Source: a bacterium
GTDB taxonomy: Bacteria; Patescibacteriota; Microgenomatia; UBA1406; GWC2-37-13
NCBI GenBank assembly: GCA_021796235.1
Contig: JAJYOJ010000008.1
Coordinates: forward strand, 1-47,072
Length of the DNA stretch: 47,072 nucleotides
Direction of reading: 5' to 3'
How positions within the stretch are numbered: the stretch's first letter is position 1; the number at the start of each line of letters is the position of its first letter. Positions 15,906 to 27,339 of the stretch are shown in pieces. The notes under the pieces were generated by a model, which saw nothing but the letters and a program-made list of their open reading frames with translations, was not told the origin of the DNA and did no database searches. A program made the translations under genes and the position numbers.

Positions 15906-18386
15906 TTAACCAGTAACTAGGTTCAAAATCTTACCCGGTATGTAGATAGCTTTGTATCCTTTTCCTGCAACATATTTTTTAACACCTTCTGCTTTAAGCG
16001 CCTTTTCAATAGCTAAATTCTGATTCTTGGATTCTGAATTCTGAATTTTTACCGTTCCTCTCAATTTACCGTTAACCTGCACCGGAATCGTAATCTCTTC
16101 CTCAACGATTTCTCCCACTGCTTTGGGCCAGGCTGAGAGGTGAATCGAGCCTTTCTCTTGTAAAACTTCCCGCCAGATCTCTTCGGCCATAAACGGAGCA
16201 AATGGAGCAAGAATTTTCAAAAACTGTTTAGCTTCTTCTTTTGGCAAAGTCTTACCCTCCCAAACGTTCACGAACTCCATCATTGCGGCGATTGAGGTAT
16301 TGAACTTCATTTGAGGAATATCATCGGTAACTTTTCGAATTGTTTTCTGCAGCTTCACTACTAATTTTTTGTCTTCATTTGCTGCTGAATTCTCAATTAT
16401 GAACTCTGAATTATTGTAAAGGTCCCAAACTCTCTTTAAAAATCTGTAAGCGCCTTGCAAGGCTTTAGTTGACCAGGCAATTTCTGAGTTAAATGGCGCC
16501 ATAAACATCTCATACACCCTTAGGGTGTCCGCTCCGAACTCGGCAATAACATCATCGGGATTTATCACATTACCGAAGGATTTACTCATCTTTCTGCTGT
16601 CTTGCGCAATAACAATACCAACATTCCGCAGGCGTAAAAAAGGTTCGGAAAAGTTGAGAAGTTTGAGATCCTGCAGGGCTTTTATCCAAAAACGGGAATA
16701 AAGCAAATGTAAAACAGCATGTTCGGCCCCGCCTATATACCAATCAACCGGTAACCATTTTTTTATTGCTTCTCTACTCCAGGCTTCTTGATTATTTTTG
16801 GAATCGGCAAAACGTAAAAAATACCAACAGCTCCCTGCCCAGTTGGGCATTGTGTCTGTTTCCCGTTTGGCAGGCTTACCGCATTTGGGACATTTTGTGT
16901 TTACCCAGTTGGAAATCGTAGCCAACGGAGACTCTCCTGTCCCGGTTGGTTCGTAACTTTTCACGTACGGAAGTTTTACCGGCAGTTCTTCATCCGGTAC
17001 CGGCACCCAACCATCTTTTTTACAGTAAACCATTGGTATAGGCTCTCCCCAATAACGCTGCCGTGAAAAAATCCAGTCGCGGAGGTGATAGGTAACGACT
17101 CGTCTACCCCAACCTTTTTCTTCTGCATAATCCATTGTTTTCTCTAAACCCTCTGCGAAATCTAAGCCATTTAAAAATTTAGAATTACACACTTTTCCTT
17201 TCATTCCTTTTACAATAACCTGCTCCTTTTGCTCTATTGGAGACTTATCGCCGTTTTTGCCTTCAACAACCCGGATTATCGGAAGTTTAAATTTCTTGGC
17301 AAATTCAAAATCTTTATAATCATGGCCTGGACATCCCTGGACAGCTCCTGTTCCGACATGACCTATGACAAAATCAGATACCCAAACCGGGACGTCCCAC
17401 CCTGCAATCCTATTTGTTGCATATAAACCAGTGAATACTCCAGTTTTTTCCTTACCTTCAGTTTCTCGTTCTATTTCTGATTTTTTCTGGGCTTTCTCAT
17501 AATAAGCAATTATGTTTTTTCGTATTTTCGGATCAACGCTGATCTTTTTGTTCATTATTTTTTTTATTAATTCATGTTCCGGCGCAACAACAATGAATGT
17601 CATTCCGAAGTTTACAGGCGCGGTAGTAAAACAAATAATTGTTTCATCCGTATTTTTTACCGGGTATTCCATATTTATCCCTTCTTTCTTTCCAATCCAG
17701 TTCCTCTGCATTTCCAGAATTCCCCTTGGCCAATCGAGACCGTCAAGATCTTTCAATAGACGGTCCGCATATTTTGTAATCTTGAAAATCCATTGCGGCA
17801 GTTCTTTCTTAGTAATTTTCGCGCCGCAGCGTTCGTGGGTACCATCGGCTAAAATTTCTTCGTCTGACAAACCGGTTTTACAAAACGGGCAGAAATTGAT
17901 TAGTGTATTTTTCTTATATAGAAGCCCCATTTTGTAAAACCGGATAAAAAGCCACTGGGTCCATTTATAATACTCCGGTTCTGTGGTTGTAACTTCCCGA
18001 TCCCAATCATAAGATAAACCAACCTGCTGCATCTGACGCTTAAAGGTTACTATATGCTCCGGAACCAGATCTATGGGATTTTTTTTGGCCTTAATGGCAG
18101 CATTCTCTGCCGGAAGTCCAAACGCATCCCAACCCATTGGGTGCAGAACAGATTTACCGTTCATTCTAAAATAGCGAGCTAGAACATCCGTACCAGTGTA
18201 AACACGGACGTGACCTACATGCAAACCGGCCCCCGAAGGATAAGGAAACATTACTAAAACGTATTCCTTTACCCCTAACGTAGCCCCGCCTCCGGCGGGG
18301 CGAAGTGGGGTTTTGTAGACTTTTTCTTTTTCCCACTCTTCAATCCACTTTTTTTCAAATTCTTTCGGCTGATATTTTTTTGCCAT
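15906..18386 (-). CDS. leuS: leucyl-tRNA synthetase
   Basis: Class I synthetase of 826 residues that charges tRNA-Leu. HVGH (56-59) is the HIGH motif and DSRKMSKSFGN the KMSKS loop; the CP1 editing region (TTAPVNFGMTFIVVAPEHE) and the zinc region CPFC...CG are present. ATG 18386 (MAKKYQPKEF) is preferred to the upstream ATG; TATAAT (18393-18398, minus) ends six bases before it, implying leaderless translation. Three repeat-derived segments interrupt it in frame: residues about 26-39 (palindrome 18271-18311), an NNSEFIIENSA stretch (16386-16414), and IQNSESKNQNL (16016-16050) near the C-terminus. Confidence 0.97.
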   Translation of the reverse strand: MAKKYQPKEFEKKWIEEWEKEKVYKTPLRPAGGGATLGVKEYVLVMFPYPSGAGLHVGHVRVYTGTDVLARYFRMNGKSVLHPMGWDAFGLPAENAAIKAKKNPIDLVPEHIVTFKRQMQQVGLSYDWDREVTTTEPEYYKWTQWLFIRFYKMGLLYKKNTLINFCPFCKTGLSDEEILADGTHERCGAKITKKELPQWIFKITKYADRLLKDLDGLDWPRGILEMQRNWIGKKEGINMEYPVKNTDETIICFTTAPVNFGMTFIVVAPEHELIKKIMNKKISVDPKIRKNIIAYYEKAQKKSEIERETEGKEKTGVFTGLYATNRIAGWDVPVWVSDFVIGHVGTGAVQGCPGHDYKDFEFAKKFKLPIIRVVEGKNGDKSPIEQKEQVIVKGMKGKVCNSKFLNGLDFAEGLEKTMDYAEEKGWGRRVVTYHLRDWIFSRQRYWGEPIPMVYCKKDGWVPVPDEELPVKLPYVKSYEPTGTGESPLATISNWVNTKCPKCGKPAKRETDTMPNWAGSCWYFLRFADSKNNQEAWSREAIKKWLPVDWYIGGAEHAVLHLLYSRFWIKALQDLKLLNFSEPFLRLRNVGIVIAQDSRKMSKSFGNVINPDDVIAEFGADTLRVYEMFMAPFNSEIAWSTKALQGAYRFLKRVWDLYNNSEFIIENSAANEDKKLVVKLQKTIRKVTDDIPQMKFNTSIAAMMEFVNVWEGKTLPKEEAKQFLKILAPFAPFMAEEIWREVLQEKGSIHLSAWPKAVGEIVEEEITIPVQVNGKLRGTVKIQNSESKNQNLAIEKALKAEGVKKYVAGKGYKAIYIPGKILNLVTG
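16016..16050. repeat. AT-rich microrepeat inside leuS
   Basis: On the coding strand this reads as tandem AATTCAGAATTCAGAATCC-type units, giving IQNSESKNQNL just before the C-terminal domain end. Related TTCTGA/ATTCAGA sequence is found at 16386-16414 and inside the P-ATPase gene (31792-31825). The frame is kept. Confidence 0.6.
16386..16414. repeat. AT-rich microrepeat inside leuS (second)
   Basis: On the coding strand AATAATTCAGAGTTCATAA then TTGAGAATTC, encoding NNSEFIIENS between the catalytic core and the anticodon-binding domain. It is made of ATTCA/GAATTC units like the one at 16016-16050. Confidence 0.5.
18271..18311. repeat. GC-rich palindrome inside leuS N-terminus
   Basis: A 41-base palindrome with outer arms ACCCC/GGGGT and inner arms CCCCGCC (18284-18290) and GGCGGGG (18294-18300) around a three-base loop. 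It is translated as RPAGGGATLG, located exactly where other LeuRS proteins pass directly from the first helix to YVLxMFPYPSG. It stands out as GC-rich in AT-rich surroundings, consistent with an in-frame insertion. Confidence 0.75.
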
Positions 18387-18403
18387 GGAAGAATTATACA
18401 CTG

Positions 18404-19942
18404 TTATTGAAATCTCTGAACTATTGCTTCAATTTCCTTTTTCTTTTGCTCTGTAATAAGAACTGCAATAACGCCCAAATCCATCTGCCCGTAGACGACA
18501 ACTGATTCTAACGGCGCCAATAAAATCGCCGGTAAGGTAACAAGATCTTCTTCACCGTTGACAACGATAACTTGCTGTTCTTTTGTAGCAAAATATTTTT
18601 TTAGAGTGGATTGAAATATGCCACCTATCCCTGAGTTTATTGTTCCCGGGTTATTTGTAAGGCGAAAATGTCGAATTTTTTCGACTTGGGATCCTGTAGA
18701 TGGGCTCCCACCGGAGTAAAAAATTCGAGATTGAGCCGGAGTAAATTTTTTTCTTCTCGACCGTAAATCAATGATTTTTATCGGCGGTTTAAAACCAATC
18801 CGTTCAAGCGCCAGAGAAACAATATCGCCGACCGCAATCACCAAATTTTGCTCTATTTTAATATTAGACAGTAACAACCGGGCGGTTTTTTCCAACTCAT
18901 CTTCTCCGCCTTTAAAAACCTGTCCTAAAGGTCTTTTTAGTTCACTTCGCATTTCCTGCGGAAGAACTAATAAATTCTTTTTTTTCAAGATAGCAAAATA
19001 ACTCTTGCCTTCTCTATCGATTTCTCCAGACCGAATCCGCTCCGAAGTAACAAGCTTTCCATCTTGGGCTAAAACGTCGGGTACCTTAATTATTTTTAAG
19101 CTAGATAAACCTACTTTTTTTCGCTCTTCGTTTACCTTTAAGGTGTTTTTATAGCTCGCAGTTGAGGCGATAATCGCATCAAAATCTGAGTTTGTAAGCG
19201 CCGGCCCAAAAATATCAGAGATCGGCACCAGCCTGGAGCGTGAAAGCCAGTTATTTTTCTTCAAAAATTCACTGACGGATTTTTTTCTGGTCTGAAAATC
19301 TTCAATCGTTGCGGCTAAAAACTTATTTTTGTATAAATTTTCTTGTGCAATCCCGATTGTAACCTTATCGCCTTGTTCGAAAGCCCTTTTAATCAGTTTT
19401 TGGTGTCCGATGTGAAAATGGTCAAACGTCCCGCCAAGAATAATATTGTCAAAGAGAATTCTGTAATGGGCAATTCGCAGCAGATACCTTGGAATTCTGT
19501 CCTGCCACTTTTTACCCTCCTTTATTAATTTCCTGATCCTTTCCCCTTCGTAAAGATAGCGTTTAAAATGTCCCGGCCGCAAAATTGCATACCCGCGTTT
19601 TTCAAAAATTCCATTTACCCATTCGTTATTGCCAAAAATAATATCAATCTTCCCCGATTGTTTTACCGTATTTTGAAACCAGCGTTCGTCATCATAAAAA
19701 TCATCCAGGGGAACAATTTTAAGGACTTTCGTCTGCAATTTTTCGTTAGTGATTACAGTTTGCAAAACTTCTTTTCTTTCGTCGTAACTTAAAAAATTGT
19801 TCCCCTGATTTTTTTGGTTGGCGCTGCCAATACCAATTATCAATGAGTCGATCGATTCCAAAGCGTGGCGAATTAGCCAGAGATGACCTTTATGAAAGGG
19901 TTGAAAACGGCCGATCAAAAGCCCCACCTTGTATTTTTTCAT
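18404..19942 (-). CDS. NMN adenylyltransferase / archaeal-type PPAT / GTP-dependent dephospho-CoA kinase triple fusion
   Basis: The 512-residue chain has three enzyme-like domains. Residues 1-160 are NadM-like: GRFQPFHKGH (11-20) with HKGH, and EGERIRKLI (132-140), for NAD formation from NMN and ATP. Residues 163-315 are archaeal COG1019-type phosphopantetheine adenylyltransferase: ILGGTFDHFHIGH (168-180) and LVTSERIRSGEIDREG (297-312). Residues 325-510 match DUF359, the archaeal GTP-dependent dephospho-CoA kinase: VGDIVSLAL, NNPGTI, NGEEDLVTLPA (462-471) and YGQMDLGV. Start 19942 is chosen over an upstream in-frame ATG because MKKYKVGLLIGRFQP is the natural N-terminus and an extended -10 TGG-TACAAT lies nine bases before it. 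It faces NAD synthetase across 17 bases. A palindrome interrupts the third domain in frame (residues about 405-425). Confidence 0.88.
   Translation of the reverse strand: MKKYKVGLLIGRFQPFHKGHLWLIRHALESIDSLIIGIGSANQKNQGNNFLSYDERKEVLQTVITNEKLQTKVLKIVPLDDFYDDERWFQNTVKQSGKIDIIFGNNEWVNGIFEKRGYAILRPGHFKRYLYEGERIRKLIKEGKKWQDRIPRYLLRIAHYRILFDNIILGGTFDHFHIGHQKLIKRAFEQGDKVTIGIAQENLYKNKFLAATIEDFQTRKKSVSEFLKKNNWLSRSRLVPISDIFGPALTNSDFDAIIASTASYKNTLKVNEERKKVGLSSLKIIKVPDVLAQDGKLVTSERIRSGEIDREGKSYFAILKKKNLLVLPQEMRSELKRPLGQVFKGGEDELEKTARLLLSNIKIEQNLVIAVGDIVSLALERIGFKPPIKIIDLRSRRKKFTPAQSRIFYSGGSPSTGSQVEKIRHFRLTNNPGTINSGIGGIFQSTLKKYFATKEQQVIVVNGEEDLVTLPAILLAPLESVVVYGQMDLGVIAVLITEQKKKEIEAIVQRFQ
18671..18728. repeat. 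palindromic repeat in frame inside the NadM/PPAT/DPCK gene
   Basis: Perfect 11-base arms TCGAATTTTTT (18671-18681) and AAAAAATTCGA (18718-18728) flank a centre with inner arms TGGGA (18687-18691) and TCCCA (18706-18710). Translated, it gives FYSGGSPSTGSQVEKIR inside the DUF359 domain between IDLRSRR and NNPGTI, where a short loop is expected. Confidence 0.75.
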
Positions 19943-19959: not shown

Positions 19960-20745
19960 ATGAAGCCGATAAATCCAAAAGACGAAAAAGAAAAAATAAT
20001 CAAATTTATTAGAGAAACCCTAAAAAAACAAGGTTTTAAAAACGTAGTAATTGGAGTTTCAGGCGGAATTGATTCCACCGTGAGCCTTTATCTTTTAAAA
20101 GAAACTATTCCCGCCAGAAATATTATCGCTATCCATCTTCCCTACCTTGAGTCGCACGAAAAAAAGTTAAAGAAGGTATTTAACATAAAAACTATATCTC
20201 TAAAGCCTTTTTTGAGCGAAGATGTCTTTTTCGAGCTTTTTAAGGAGCCGATGAGCCGGGAGGAGATCTCCTCTAAAGCGAGAAACAAGATATCAAGCGA
20301 GAAAAAGATTAGGCTAGGAAATATTACGGCCCGGTTACGTATGATTATTCTCTATGATTTCGCCAAAAAATATAACGCTTTAGTCTGCGGGACAGAAAAC
20401 AGAACCGAACAGCTTTTGGGTTACTTCACCCGCTTTGGAGATGCAGCGAGCGACTTTGAACCGATCCAACACCTTTACAAAACCCAGGTCTATCAACTGG
20501 CAAAATATTTACGACTTCCCAATGAATTTATCGAGCAAAAACCTACTGCCGGCTTATGGCAGGGGCAAACCGATGAAGGCGAGTTTGGCTTTTCTTACGA
20601 AGAAGCCGATAACGTCTTAAGTCTTTATTTTGATAACAAAAAAACTGTGGAACAAATAGAAAAACTCGGCTGCAAAAATACCAGGAAAATTCTTGATTTT
20701 GGTAAAAAAAATAGTTTTAAACGTGAAACTCCTTATATTCTATAA
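19960..20745 (+). CDS. nadE: NH3-dependent NAD+ synthetase
   Basis: Amidates deamido-NAD to NAD with ATP and ammonia. The 261-residue protein has only the synthetase domain, with the PP-loop SGGIDSTVSLYLL (about 35-47), GNITARLRMIILYDFA, GTENRTEQLLGYFTRFGD and the C-terminal KKPTAGLWxGQTDE-like EQKPTAGLWQGQTDEGEFG. No glutaminase domain is fused. It is divergent from the gene that supplies deamido-NAD or NAD through its NadM domain. The ATG sits six bases after an extended -10. A shared hairpin terminator follows. Confidence 0.95.
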   Translation: MKPINPKDEKEKIIKFIRETLKKQGFKNVVIGVSGGIDSTVSLYLLKETIPARNIIAIHLPYLESHEKKLKKVFNIKTISLKPFLSEDVFFELFKEPMSREEISSKARNKISSEKKIRLGNITARLRMIILYDFAKKYNALVCGTENRTEQLLGYFTRFGDAASDFEPIQHLYKTQVYQLAKYLRLPNEFIEQKPTAGLWQGQTDEGEFGFSYEEADNVLSLYFDNKKTVEQIEKLGCKNTRKILDFGKKNSFKRETPYIL

Positions 20746-25359: not shown

Positions 25360-27339
25360 ATGATCAATCCTTCCCAAGAAATAATCGATTCTGCCTACGT
25401 CAAGGATTACGAAAAACTCTACACCGAGGTTAAGGAAAATCCCGAAGCTTTTTGGGAAAATATTGCCAAAGAACTTTCCTGGTTTAAACCCTGGAATAAA
25501 GTGCTGGACTGGAACTACCCGTACGCCCGATGGTTTGTGGGCGGACAGTGCAATATCGTGAATAATGCTCTTGACCGCTGGCAAAAAACCGATGTTGCCG
25601 AAAAAAAAGCTTATATCTGGGTAGCACAAGATGGAACAGAACGAACTTTTACCTATAAACAATTGAACGATGCGGTTTCCCGCTTTGCCAACGGCCTGAA
25701 ATCTTTAGGTCTAAAAAAAGGCGACCGAGTATCAATTTATCTGCCTCGAATTCCCGAACAGTTTATCGCGATGCTTGCCTGCGCAAAAATCGGGGTAATC
25801 CACTCGGTTGTTTTTTCCGGGTTCTCGGTTGACGCCTTAAAAAACCGCATTGTTGACGCCGAGGCTAAAGTTGTAATCTGCGCTGACGGGTATCCTTACA
25901 AAGATAAAGTTGTTGAGTGCAAAAAAAATGTAGATGAGGCGATTGAGAATATAAAAATGGCGACAGGTGGCACGCCTGGGAGGGATCCCGGCAGCGCGCA
26001 GGTAACGAGCACGGACGGGAAGGACAAGGCGGGACAGAATCTGTCGCAGATTGAACATGTTATTGTTATTAAGCGAGCCGGAAATAATATTCAAATGCAG
26101 CCCGGCCGTGACATCTGGTACCACGAACTGGTAGCTAAACAGGATCCAATCTGTTCAACGGTAATTATGGAAGCAACCGATCCGCTTTTTATTCTTTACA
26201 CCTCCGGTTCAACCGGCAAACCCAAGGGAGTTATCCACTCGCACGGCGGATATATGGTTGGCACATATTCAACCTTGCGCTGGATCTTCAATCTTCAGCC
26301 TGATGATATTTATTTTTGCACGGCCGACTCCGGTTGGATCACCGGCCACAGTTATATTGTTTATTCACCCCTTATGAACGGGGCGACAACCTTCGTTTAT
26401 GAAGGGACTCCCGACTATCCCGACCCGGGAATCTGGTGGCGACTGGTAGAAAAATATAAAATTACAAAGTTCTATACGGCCCCAACTGCAATACGCGCGC
26501 TTATGCGCTTGGGTGATGAAATTCCCAACAAATACGATTTGAGTTCTTTAAAAATTTTAGGCACAGTCGGTGAACCGATCAATCCCGAGGCCTGGCTTTG
26601 GTATCACCGGGTTATTGGAAAAGAAAAATGTCCGGTCATGGATACCTGGTGGCAGACCGAAACCGGCATGATGATGATCTCGCCGCTTCCCGCCTCGCCT
26701 CTTAAGGCCGGCAGTGCTTCCAAACCGTTTTTTGGTATTGAAACCGAAATAGTGGATGAAAAAGGCAATCCTGCGCCTGTTGACACTCAAGGATATTTAA
26801 TTATCAAGAAGCCCTGGCCGTCGATGCTTATGGATGTTTACAACAATCCCAAACGCTATTTGGAAACCTATTTTCAAAATGAAGCTATCACGAATACTCA
26901 AATATTCGAAAATAAACAATTCTTTTATTTCACCGGCGACTCTGCCAAAAAAGATGCGGACGGATACTATTGGATCGTAGGTAGAAACGACGACGTTATA
27001 AAAGTCTCGGGACATCGTTTGGGATCGGCCGAACTTGAAAGCGCTTTTGTTGCCCATCCGTCGGTTGCCGAAGCCGCGGTAATCGGCAAACCTGATGAGG
27101 TAAAAGGCGAAAAAATCAAGGCATTTATAATCCTGAAGAAAGACGTCCAACCGTCTGATCAACTCAAAGAAGAGCTGAAACAACAGGTACGAAAAATGAT
27201 CGGTCCGATTGCGACGCCGGATGAGATTGAATTTGTTGATAAGCTGCCTAAAACCAGAAGTGGAAAGATTATGCGCCGCGTCCTAAAAGCCCAGGAACTG
27301 GGACAACCCTTGGGCGACACCTCAACGTTGGAAAATTAA
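25360..27339 (+). CDS. acs: AMP-forming acetyl-CoA synthetase
   Basis: Activates acetate to acetyl-CoA through acetyl-AMP. The 659-residue protein has LYTSGSTGKPKG (P-loop), DSGWITGHSYIVYSPL, TAPTAIRALMR, WWQTETG, YYWIVGRNDDVIKVSGHR, and the acetylatable lysine motif PKTRSGKIMRR near the C-terminus. Residues 201-230 (nt 25960-26047) are an insertion relative to other Acs proteins, made by a structured repeat also present in tkt. Expression should be leaderless (see promoter). In a fermenting CPR cell an AMP-forming enzyme suggests acetate assimilation or protein acetylation control, which is inference. Confidence 0.96.
   Translation: MINPSQEIIDSAYVKDYEKLYTEVKENPEAFWENIAKELSWFKPWNKVLDWNYPYARWFVGGQCNIVNNALDRWQKTDVAEKKAYIWVAQDGTERTFTYKQLNDAVSRFANGLKSLGLKKGDRVSIYLPRIPEQFIAMLACAKIGVIHSVVFSGFSVDALKNRIVDAEAKVVICADGYPYKDKVVECKKNVDEAIENIKMATGGTPGRDPGSAQVTSTDGKDKAGQNLSQIEHVIVIKRAGNNIQMQPGRDIWYHELVAKQDPICSTVIMEATDPLFILYTSGSTGKPKGVIHSHGGYMVGTYSTLRWIFNLQPDDIYFCTADSGWITGHSYIVYSPLMNGATTFVYEGTPDYPDPGIWWRLVEKYKITKFYTAPTAIRALMRLGDEIPNKYDLSSLKILGTVGEPINPEAWLWYHRVIGKEKCPVMDTWWQTETGMMMISPLPASPLKAGSASKPFFGIETEIVDEKGNPAPVDTQGYLIIKKPWPSMLMDVYNNPKRYLETYFQNEAITNTQIFENKQFFYFTGDSAKKDADGYYWIVGRNDDVIKVSGHRLGSAELESAFVAHPSVAEAAVIGKPDEVKGEKIKAFIILKKDVQPSDQLKEELKQQVRKMIGPIATPDEIEFVDKLPKTRSGKIMRRVLKAQELGQPLGDTSTLEN
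25960..26047. repeat. in-frame structured repeat element, copy 1 (in acs)
   Basis: An 88-base GC-rich element with inverted ends GCGACAG (25960-25966) and CTGTCGC (26041-26047) and an inner stem GGGA/TCCC (25978-25981 and 25986-25989). It encodes ATGGTPGR...AQV...GQNLSQ. It aligns along its length with 29424-29529 in tkt, in the same reading frame. Confidence 0.85.

Follow-up and report, generated by a model that had tools for sequence, protein, structure and literature searches.

A NadM, archaeal-type phosphopantetheine adenylyltransferase and dephospho-CoA kinase fusion in Microgenomatia: a predicted link between NAD and CoA synthesis

Domain architecture and active-site residues

The window, that is the whole stretch of 47,072 nucleotides analyzed here, encodes a 512-residue protein with three complete domains, namely a NadM-type adenylyltransferase, an archaeal phosphopantetheine adenylyltransferase (PPAT) and a dephospho-CoA kinase (DPCK) of the DUF359/arCOG04076 family (Table 1). 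The original prediction described just such a triple fusion, and sequence profiles, PDB relatives and the fold of a structural model agree with it; all the motifs that it cited for the three domains are present. Its statement that the gene faces nadE is correct in the sense that the two genes are divergent, and leuS is a neighbor kept in most genomes of the host's family.

Table 1. Coordinates of the fused gene, its domains and other genes in the window
Feature	Position	Strand	Details
leuS	15906..18401	-	directly downstream of the fusion, same strand
Triple-fusion gene nadM-PPAT-DPCK	18404..19942	-	512 aa; ATG at 19942, stop at 18404-18406; ORF check, profile, PDB sequence and fold matches
Domain 3, GTP-type dephospho-CoA kinase (DPCK), DUF359/arCOG04076	18410..18970	-	aa 325-511; GD aa 372-373, D392 of IDLRSRR, GEEDL aa 463-467
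Domain 2, archaeal-type phosphopantetheine adenylyltransferase (PPAT)	19004..19450	-	aa 165-313; GGTFDHFHIGH aa 170-180, TSERIRSGEIDR aa 299-310
Domain 1, NadM-type NMN/NaMN adenylyltransferase	19472..19942	-	aa 1-157; GRFQPFHKGH aa 11-20, YEGERIR aa 131-137
nadE, ammonia-type NAD synthetase	19960..20745	+	divergent from the fusion, start to start, 17-base gap
Acetyl-CoA-synthetase-like gene	25360..27339		by reading only

The NadM domain (residues 7-156) matches the NCBIfam profile NF002243 (1e-39; 136 bits against a cut-off of 127) and falls under the cut-off of the NMNAT equivalog model TIGR01527 (127 versus 181), and the PPAT domain (residues 165-313) is recovered by NF001985 (1.9e-51; 174 bits against 104). 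The third domain, for which DUF359 membership had been proposed, is matched by the Pfam model PF04019 over residues 376-511 (4e-25; 88-91 bits against a cut-off of 25), with the N-terminal part of the kinase domain starting at residue 325, ahead of this match. In sequence comparisons with the PDB each domain retrieves a relative of its own, namely an NMNAT (1f9a; 2.6e-24), a GTP-dependent dephospho-CoA kinase (8jvc; 4e-21) and a PPAT (3do8; 1e-20), and 1ej2 also matches the NadM domain in both sequence and fold. An AlphaFold model built from 38 relatives has a mean pLDDT of 91.5, with all three domains being confident and a short loop (413-422) being poor. Its best fold matches in the PDB are the dephospho-CoA kinase of Thermococcus kodakarensis (8jvc, the top match; E 4.8e-14, TM 0.83 by target), archaeal NMNAT and the Archaeoglobus fulgidus PPAT 3do8. 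The NF001985, PF04019, 3do8 and 8jvc matches bear out the assignment of the last two domains to archaeal-type families of the last two steps of CoA synthesis, with catalysis itself being predicted.

TK1697 of T. kodakarensis is a demonstrated GTP-dependent dephospho-CoA kinase, for which complementation is poor when D48, D67 or D125 is replaced by alanine (PMC6650551). The equivalent residues of the fusion (D373, D392 and D466, respectively) are invariant in all 31 relatives aligned. The segment IDLRSRR, which had been singled out for standing where the family usually has a DGKTKR-like motif, does occupy the D67 segment and aligns with YDLKTKR of the T. kodakarensis enzyme, but there is nothing unusual about it: its aspartate and last arginine are invariant in the 31 relatives. 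We accordingly reject inactivity of the kinase owing to IDLRSRR, which the alignment identifies as an ordinary variant of the family.

The HxGH motif is invariant in both adenylyltransferase domains, as is the arginine of the second motif (in NadM, 18 of 18), and the PPAT motifs GGTFDxxHxGH and SxRIRxGEIDRxG are present in the 31 aligned rows. The second motif of NadM, YEGERIR (class pattern YEGxRIR), keeps the final arginine of the archaeal YSGTEIR and lacks its S and T, and that of PPAT reads TSERIR as against the archaeal SSTRIK. The hydroxyl residues missing from both second motifs normally contact an ATP phosphate. Standalone NadM and PPAT-DPCK proteins of Microgenomatia commonly show these changes too, which suggests a trait of the class and not decay of the triple gene; an explanation of the NadM change as decay peculiar to the fused copy is rejected on the same grounds.

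Phyletic distribution and gene neighborhoods

The triple frame is found in 19 of the 72 genomes of the host's family (one of the 19 copies running off a contig end close to its C-terminus), which belong to the genera g1, g320 and g572 and whose named members are Roizmanbacteria. In two further genomes of the family, G959 and G431 (the latter of the genus g318), contig ends truncate or split the gene. Identity among the aligned members of the triple fusion is 43-49%, and retention of the frame at this divergence across 19 genomes of three genera suggests that it has been kept by selection. The gene order in the fused genomes is nadE, triple gene, leuS, with nadE lying divergently beside the triple gene in 18 of the 19. 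Within g320, G962 has only a 99-residue remnant (L351:1727-2023) and G597 lacks the gene, which possibly reflects loss of the end of the pathway.

In the sister genus g317, nadM followed by PPAT-DPCK occur as separate tandem genes on the same strand, and in one of its genomes (G697) nadE is divergent from nadM. In several further genomes belonging to this family or its order (L045, L049, L054, L057) the arrangement is an RRM gene, PPAT-DPCK and leuS, with neither nadM nor nadE between them. At L233:1443-3042, in Roizmanbacteria RIFCSPHIGHO2_01_FULL_39_8, a nadM-like nucleotidyltransferase frame (weak PPAT-profile match only) overlaps the start of PPAT-DPCK by 20 bases in another frame, and this PPAT-DPCK clusters with g317 in the tree. 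In other Microgenomatia families the nadM and nadE frames overlap on one strand (L341:956-2210 and L344:207-1462), supporting a role in NAD synthesis for the NadM of the class.

A survey of 137 Microgenomatia genomes, each at least 90% complete, recovered DUF359 in 51, nearly always in frames of PPAT-DPCK size; relatives include Roizmanbacteria S40-21 (L214 of G961), Levybacteria (L199 of G269) and Gottesmanbacteria (L157 of G430). The two-domain PPAT-DPCK fusion is thus widespread in Microgenomatia and not peculiar to the host. Of the original view of a compact solution for a reduced genome, the triple fusion stands as real, but its PPAT-DPCK half is common in the class and known in uncultured archaea (PMC6650551). 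CoaE is clear in only four of the 137 genomes, all of one family and none with DUF359, and both of the CoaE genes read out from these are fused to a bacterial CoaD, as frames of about 380 residues (L347:917-2056 on the minus strand and L348:509-1645 on the plus strand, family f3). Of the 51 genomes with DUF359, 14 have CoaBC, as against 1 of the 86 without DUF359 (Fisher p 3e-6, ignoring relatedness). A 568-residue DUF359 frame in G912 was rejected as a further fusion, since in DNA this rich in G+C the long frame reads as spurious.

Archaeal affinities and the order of events

The fusion of PPAT with arCOG04076 was described in uncultured archaea (for example AIF21550.1) by Shimosaka et al. 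2019, whose PSI-BLAST search reported arCOG04076 members from archaea only (PMC6650551), and the archaeal-type DPCK figures among markers of archaeal genome quality (PMC8421398, PMC10134863). In our samples DUF359 is present in 38 of 41 Halobacteriota, where the standalone form is nearly universal, and, standalone or fused, in 55 of 60 Thermoplasmatota; PPAT-DPCK fusions were found in MGII/III, Aenigmatarchaeota and other DPANN genomes. None of ten bacterial control genomes, all of which have CoaE, has DUF359.

The DPANN genomes also contain other arrangements. At nine loci (L255, L257, L259, L260, L269, L270, L271, L275 and L277), from the phylum of an Aenigmatarchaeota genome, DUF359 is C-terminal to another domain. 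This partner is a P-loop kinase (AAA_18) in the five scanned that lack PPAT (L255, L259, L271, L275 and L277), with PRK03839 matching in both of those tested, and the fusion may offer a hint to the function of the partner kinase. Three genomes of the same phylum (L258, L262 and L267) have the reversed order, DPCK then PPAT, which was checked with Pfam in L258.

In the DUF359 tree, which is based on 174 columns, deep support is weak. With all Microgenomatia copies constrained to one clade the likelihood is higher than that of the quick unconstrained tree (p-AU 0.90); a single clade of all PPAT-first fusions is likewise not rejected (p-AU 0.85). The sequences are thus compatible with one origin of all DUF359 copies in the class, and with deep support weak and both clades compatible with the data, no archaeal donor can be named. 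On the same evidence the idea that a particular archaeon donated the gene recently is rejected. The earlier suggestion of archaeal gene transfer therefore holds to the extent that archaeal ancestry is likely, the transfer likely being an old one that the tree does not assign to a donor.

The best tree calculated from the PPAT-DPCK portion places the triple proteins on one side of a branch, so that a single change is required; support for this branch is low (34/30) with the host copy and 100/97 without it. The natural reading of the gene orders is that an archaeal-type PPAT-DPCK fusion would have arisen first in Microgenomatia, that a nadE-nadM pair would then have been inserted upstream of it, and that nadM would finally have fused in frame to the PPAT-DPCK gene.

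Predicted function and comparison with known systems

The host genome (922 kb, 96% complete, 21 contigs) shows no profile match for CoaE, CoaBC (DFP) or NAPRTase/NAMPT. E. coli CoaA, CoaD, PanB/C/D, NadC, NadD and PncB used as phmmer queries found no match in it besides the fusion; such queries are a weak test of absence, which is why profiles were used for CoaE, DFP and NAPRTase. The search for coaA-D or coaE elsewhere in the genome, which the original prediction had called for, hence recovered none of them (CoaE and CoaBC by profile, CoaA and CoaD by E. coli queries). Likewise no other CoaD/NadD-like or NadM domain was found in the host genome, the sole other HxGH nucleotidyltransferase found there being HldE-like. 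As the assembly consists of 21 contigs at 96% completeness, any upstream gene that seems absent may lie in a gap. The proposed connection to NAD and to a reduced genome is upheld by the NadM domain, the divergent nadE and the genome size. For mycoplasmas it has been proposed that PPAT and DPCK persist as a remnant of the CoA pathway, supplied with phosphopantetheine from the environment (PMC8721197).

The apparent absence of the other CoA and NAD genes, the presence of nadE and the mycoplasma proposal together suggest a trifunctional salvage enzyme. Domain 1 would convert NaMN (or NMN) and ATP to NaAD (or NAD), with the neighboring NadE amidating NaAD to NAD; domain 2 would form dephospho-CoA from 4'-phosphopantetheine and ATP; and domain 3 would convert dephospho-CoA to CoA, with GTP probably being the phosphate donor. 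As the earlier steps of both pathways are seemingly absent, the enzyme would complete both cofactors from scavenged nucleotide-level precursors, with 4'-phosphopantetheine and NaMN/NMN being the putative salvage substrates. Catalysis by all three domains is predicted from their sequences and the model, and we consider it likely that they are active on a single chain with short linkers, finish CoA and NAD in this manner and came together stepwise. It is also probable, if by a shade less so, that a single enzyme derived from an archaeal-type CoA synthase performs both adenylyl transfers and the last CoA kinase step, such that a host-dependent cell would need only NadE besides to complete its two main nucleotide cofactors.

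That the PPAT-DPCK portion alone is active, with the NadM domain having lost its activity or turned to another one (such as nucleotide sensing or a different substrate) and being retained as an appendage, would fit the departure of YEGERIR from the archaeal motif and the TIGR01527 score under the cut-off. However, motifs of the YEGERIR type also occur in standalone NadMs of the class, including the nadE-adjacent one of g317, and the conservation of HxGH and the motif arginine and of the divergent nadE points to a working NadM; moreover, NadE requires NaAD, and no other NadM/NadD-like gene was found in the host. We thus regard this alternative as unlikely. Somewhat less likely again is that CoA and NAD are made from early precursors by divergent or unassembled upstream enzymes, the fusion being merely a part of full pathways: the incomplete assembly and the CoaBC genes of some DUF359-bearing members of the class would allow for this, but the profile searches for DFP, CoaE and NAPRTase, as well as the weaker tests with E. 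coli CoaA, PanB/C/D, NadC and PncB, found no such enzymes in the host, and CoaBC is also missing from most of its DUF359-bearing relatives. Least of all do we expect the three domains not to form one working enzyme, be it that assembly or gene calling created the frame artificially or that the fusion is decaying. The window is indeed a contig of a draft genome, but the full open frame recurs on independent contigs of nineteen genomes, which led us to reject an artefact, and the host's own NadM-PPAT linker has no methionine for a restart of translation.

The preferred reading, a trifunctional salvage enzyme, joins NAD and CoA synthesis in one chain, with a traceable route from adjacent genes to a fused gene, and makes the protein a direct target for understanding how Microgenomatia obtain both cofactors. 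Moreover, an archaeal-type DPCK, reported from archaea in its 2019 discovery paper (PMC6650551), proves to be common in one bacterial class. The open-licence literature searched yielded nothing relevant on a fusion of NAD and CoA synthesis or on CoA synthesis in the Microgenomatia group. Since PPAT-DPCK fusions are common in the class and already on record from uncultured archaea, novelty seems confined to the triple fusion and to the spread of PPAT-DPCK among bacteria.

Among known systems, the PPAT-arCOG04076 fusion of uncultured archaea matches the C-terminal part of the protein in both its domains and their order, but it is archaeal and without a NadM domain, and the consulted part of its description makes no mention of bacterial copies (PMC6650551). 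TK1697 (8jvc), homologous to domain 3 and with the same catalytic aspartates, is a standalone archaeal enzyme dependent on GTP, whereas the GTP preference of the bacterial domain is putative. Archaeal NadM (MJ0541, 1f9a; MTH NMNAT, 1ej2) is homologous to domain 1, with 30% identity in the fold alignment and a shared HxGH, but it is standalone and has SGTEIR in its second motif in place of the YEGERIR of the triple fusion. The eukaryotic CoA synthase (COASY) likewise carries PPAT and DPCK on one chain, as do the CoaD-CoaE fusions of family f3, in which the PPAT is of the bacterial type; in both, however, the kinase is the P-loop CoaE, unrelated to the one seen here, and NadM is lacking. Finally, NadR and NadM-Nudix (1lw7, 2qjo) also include a NadM-type domain in a multifunctional protein, but their partner domains belong to NAD metabolism, whereas those of the triple fusion belong to CoA synthesis.
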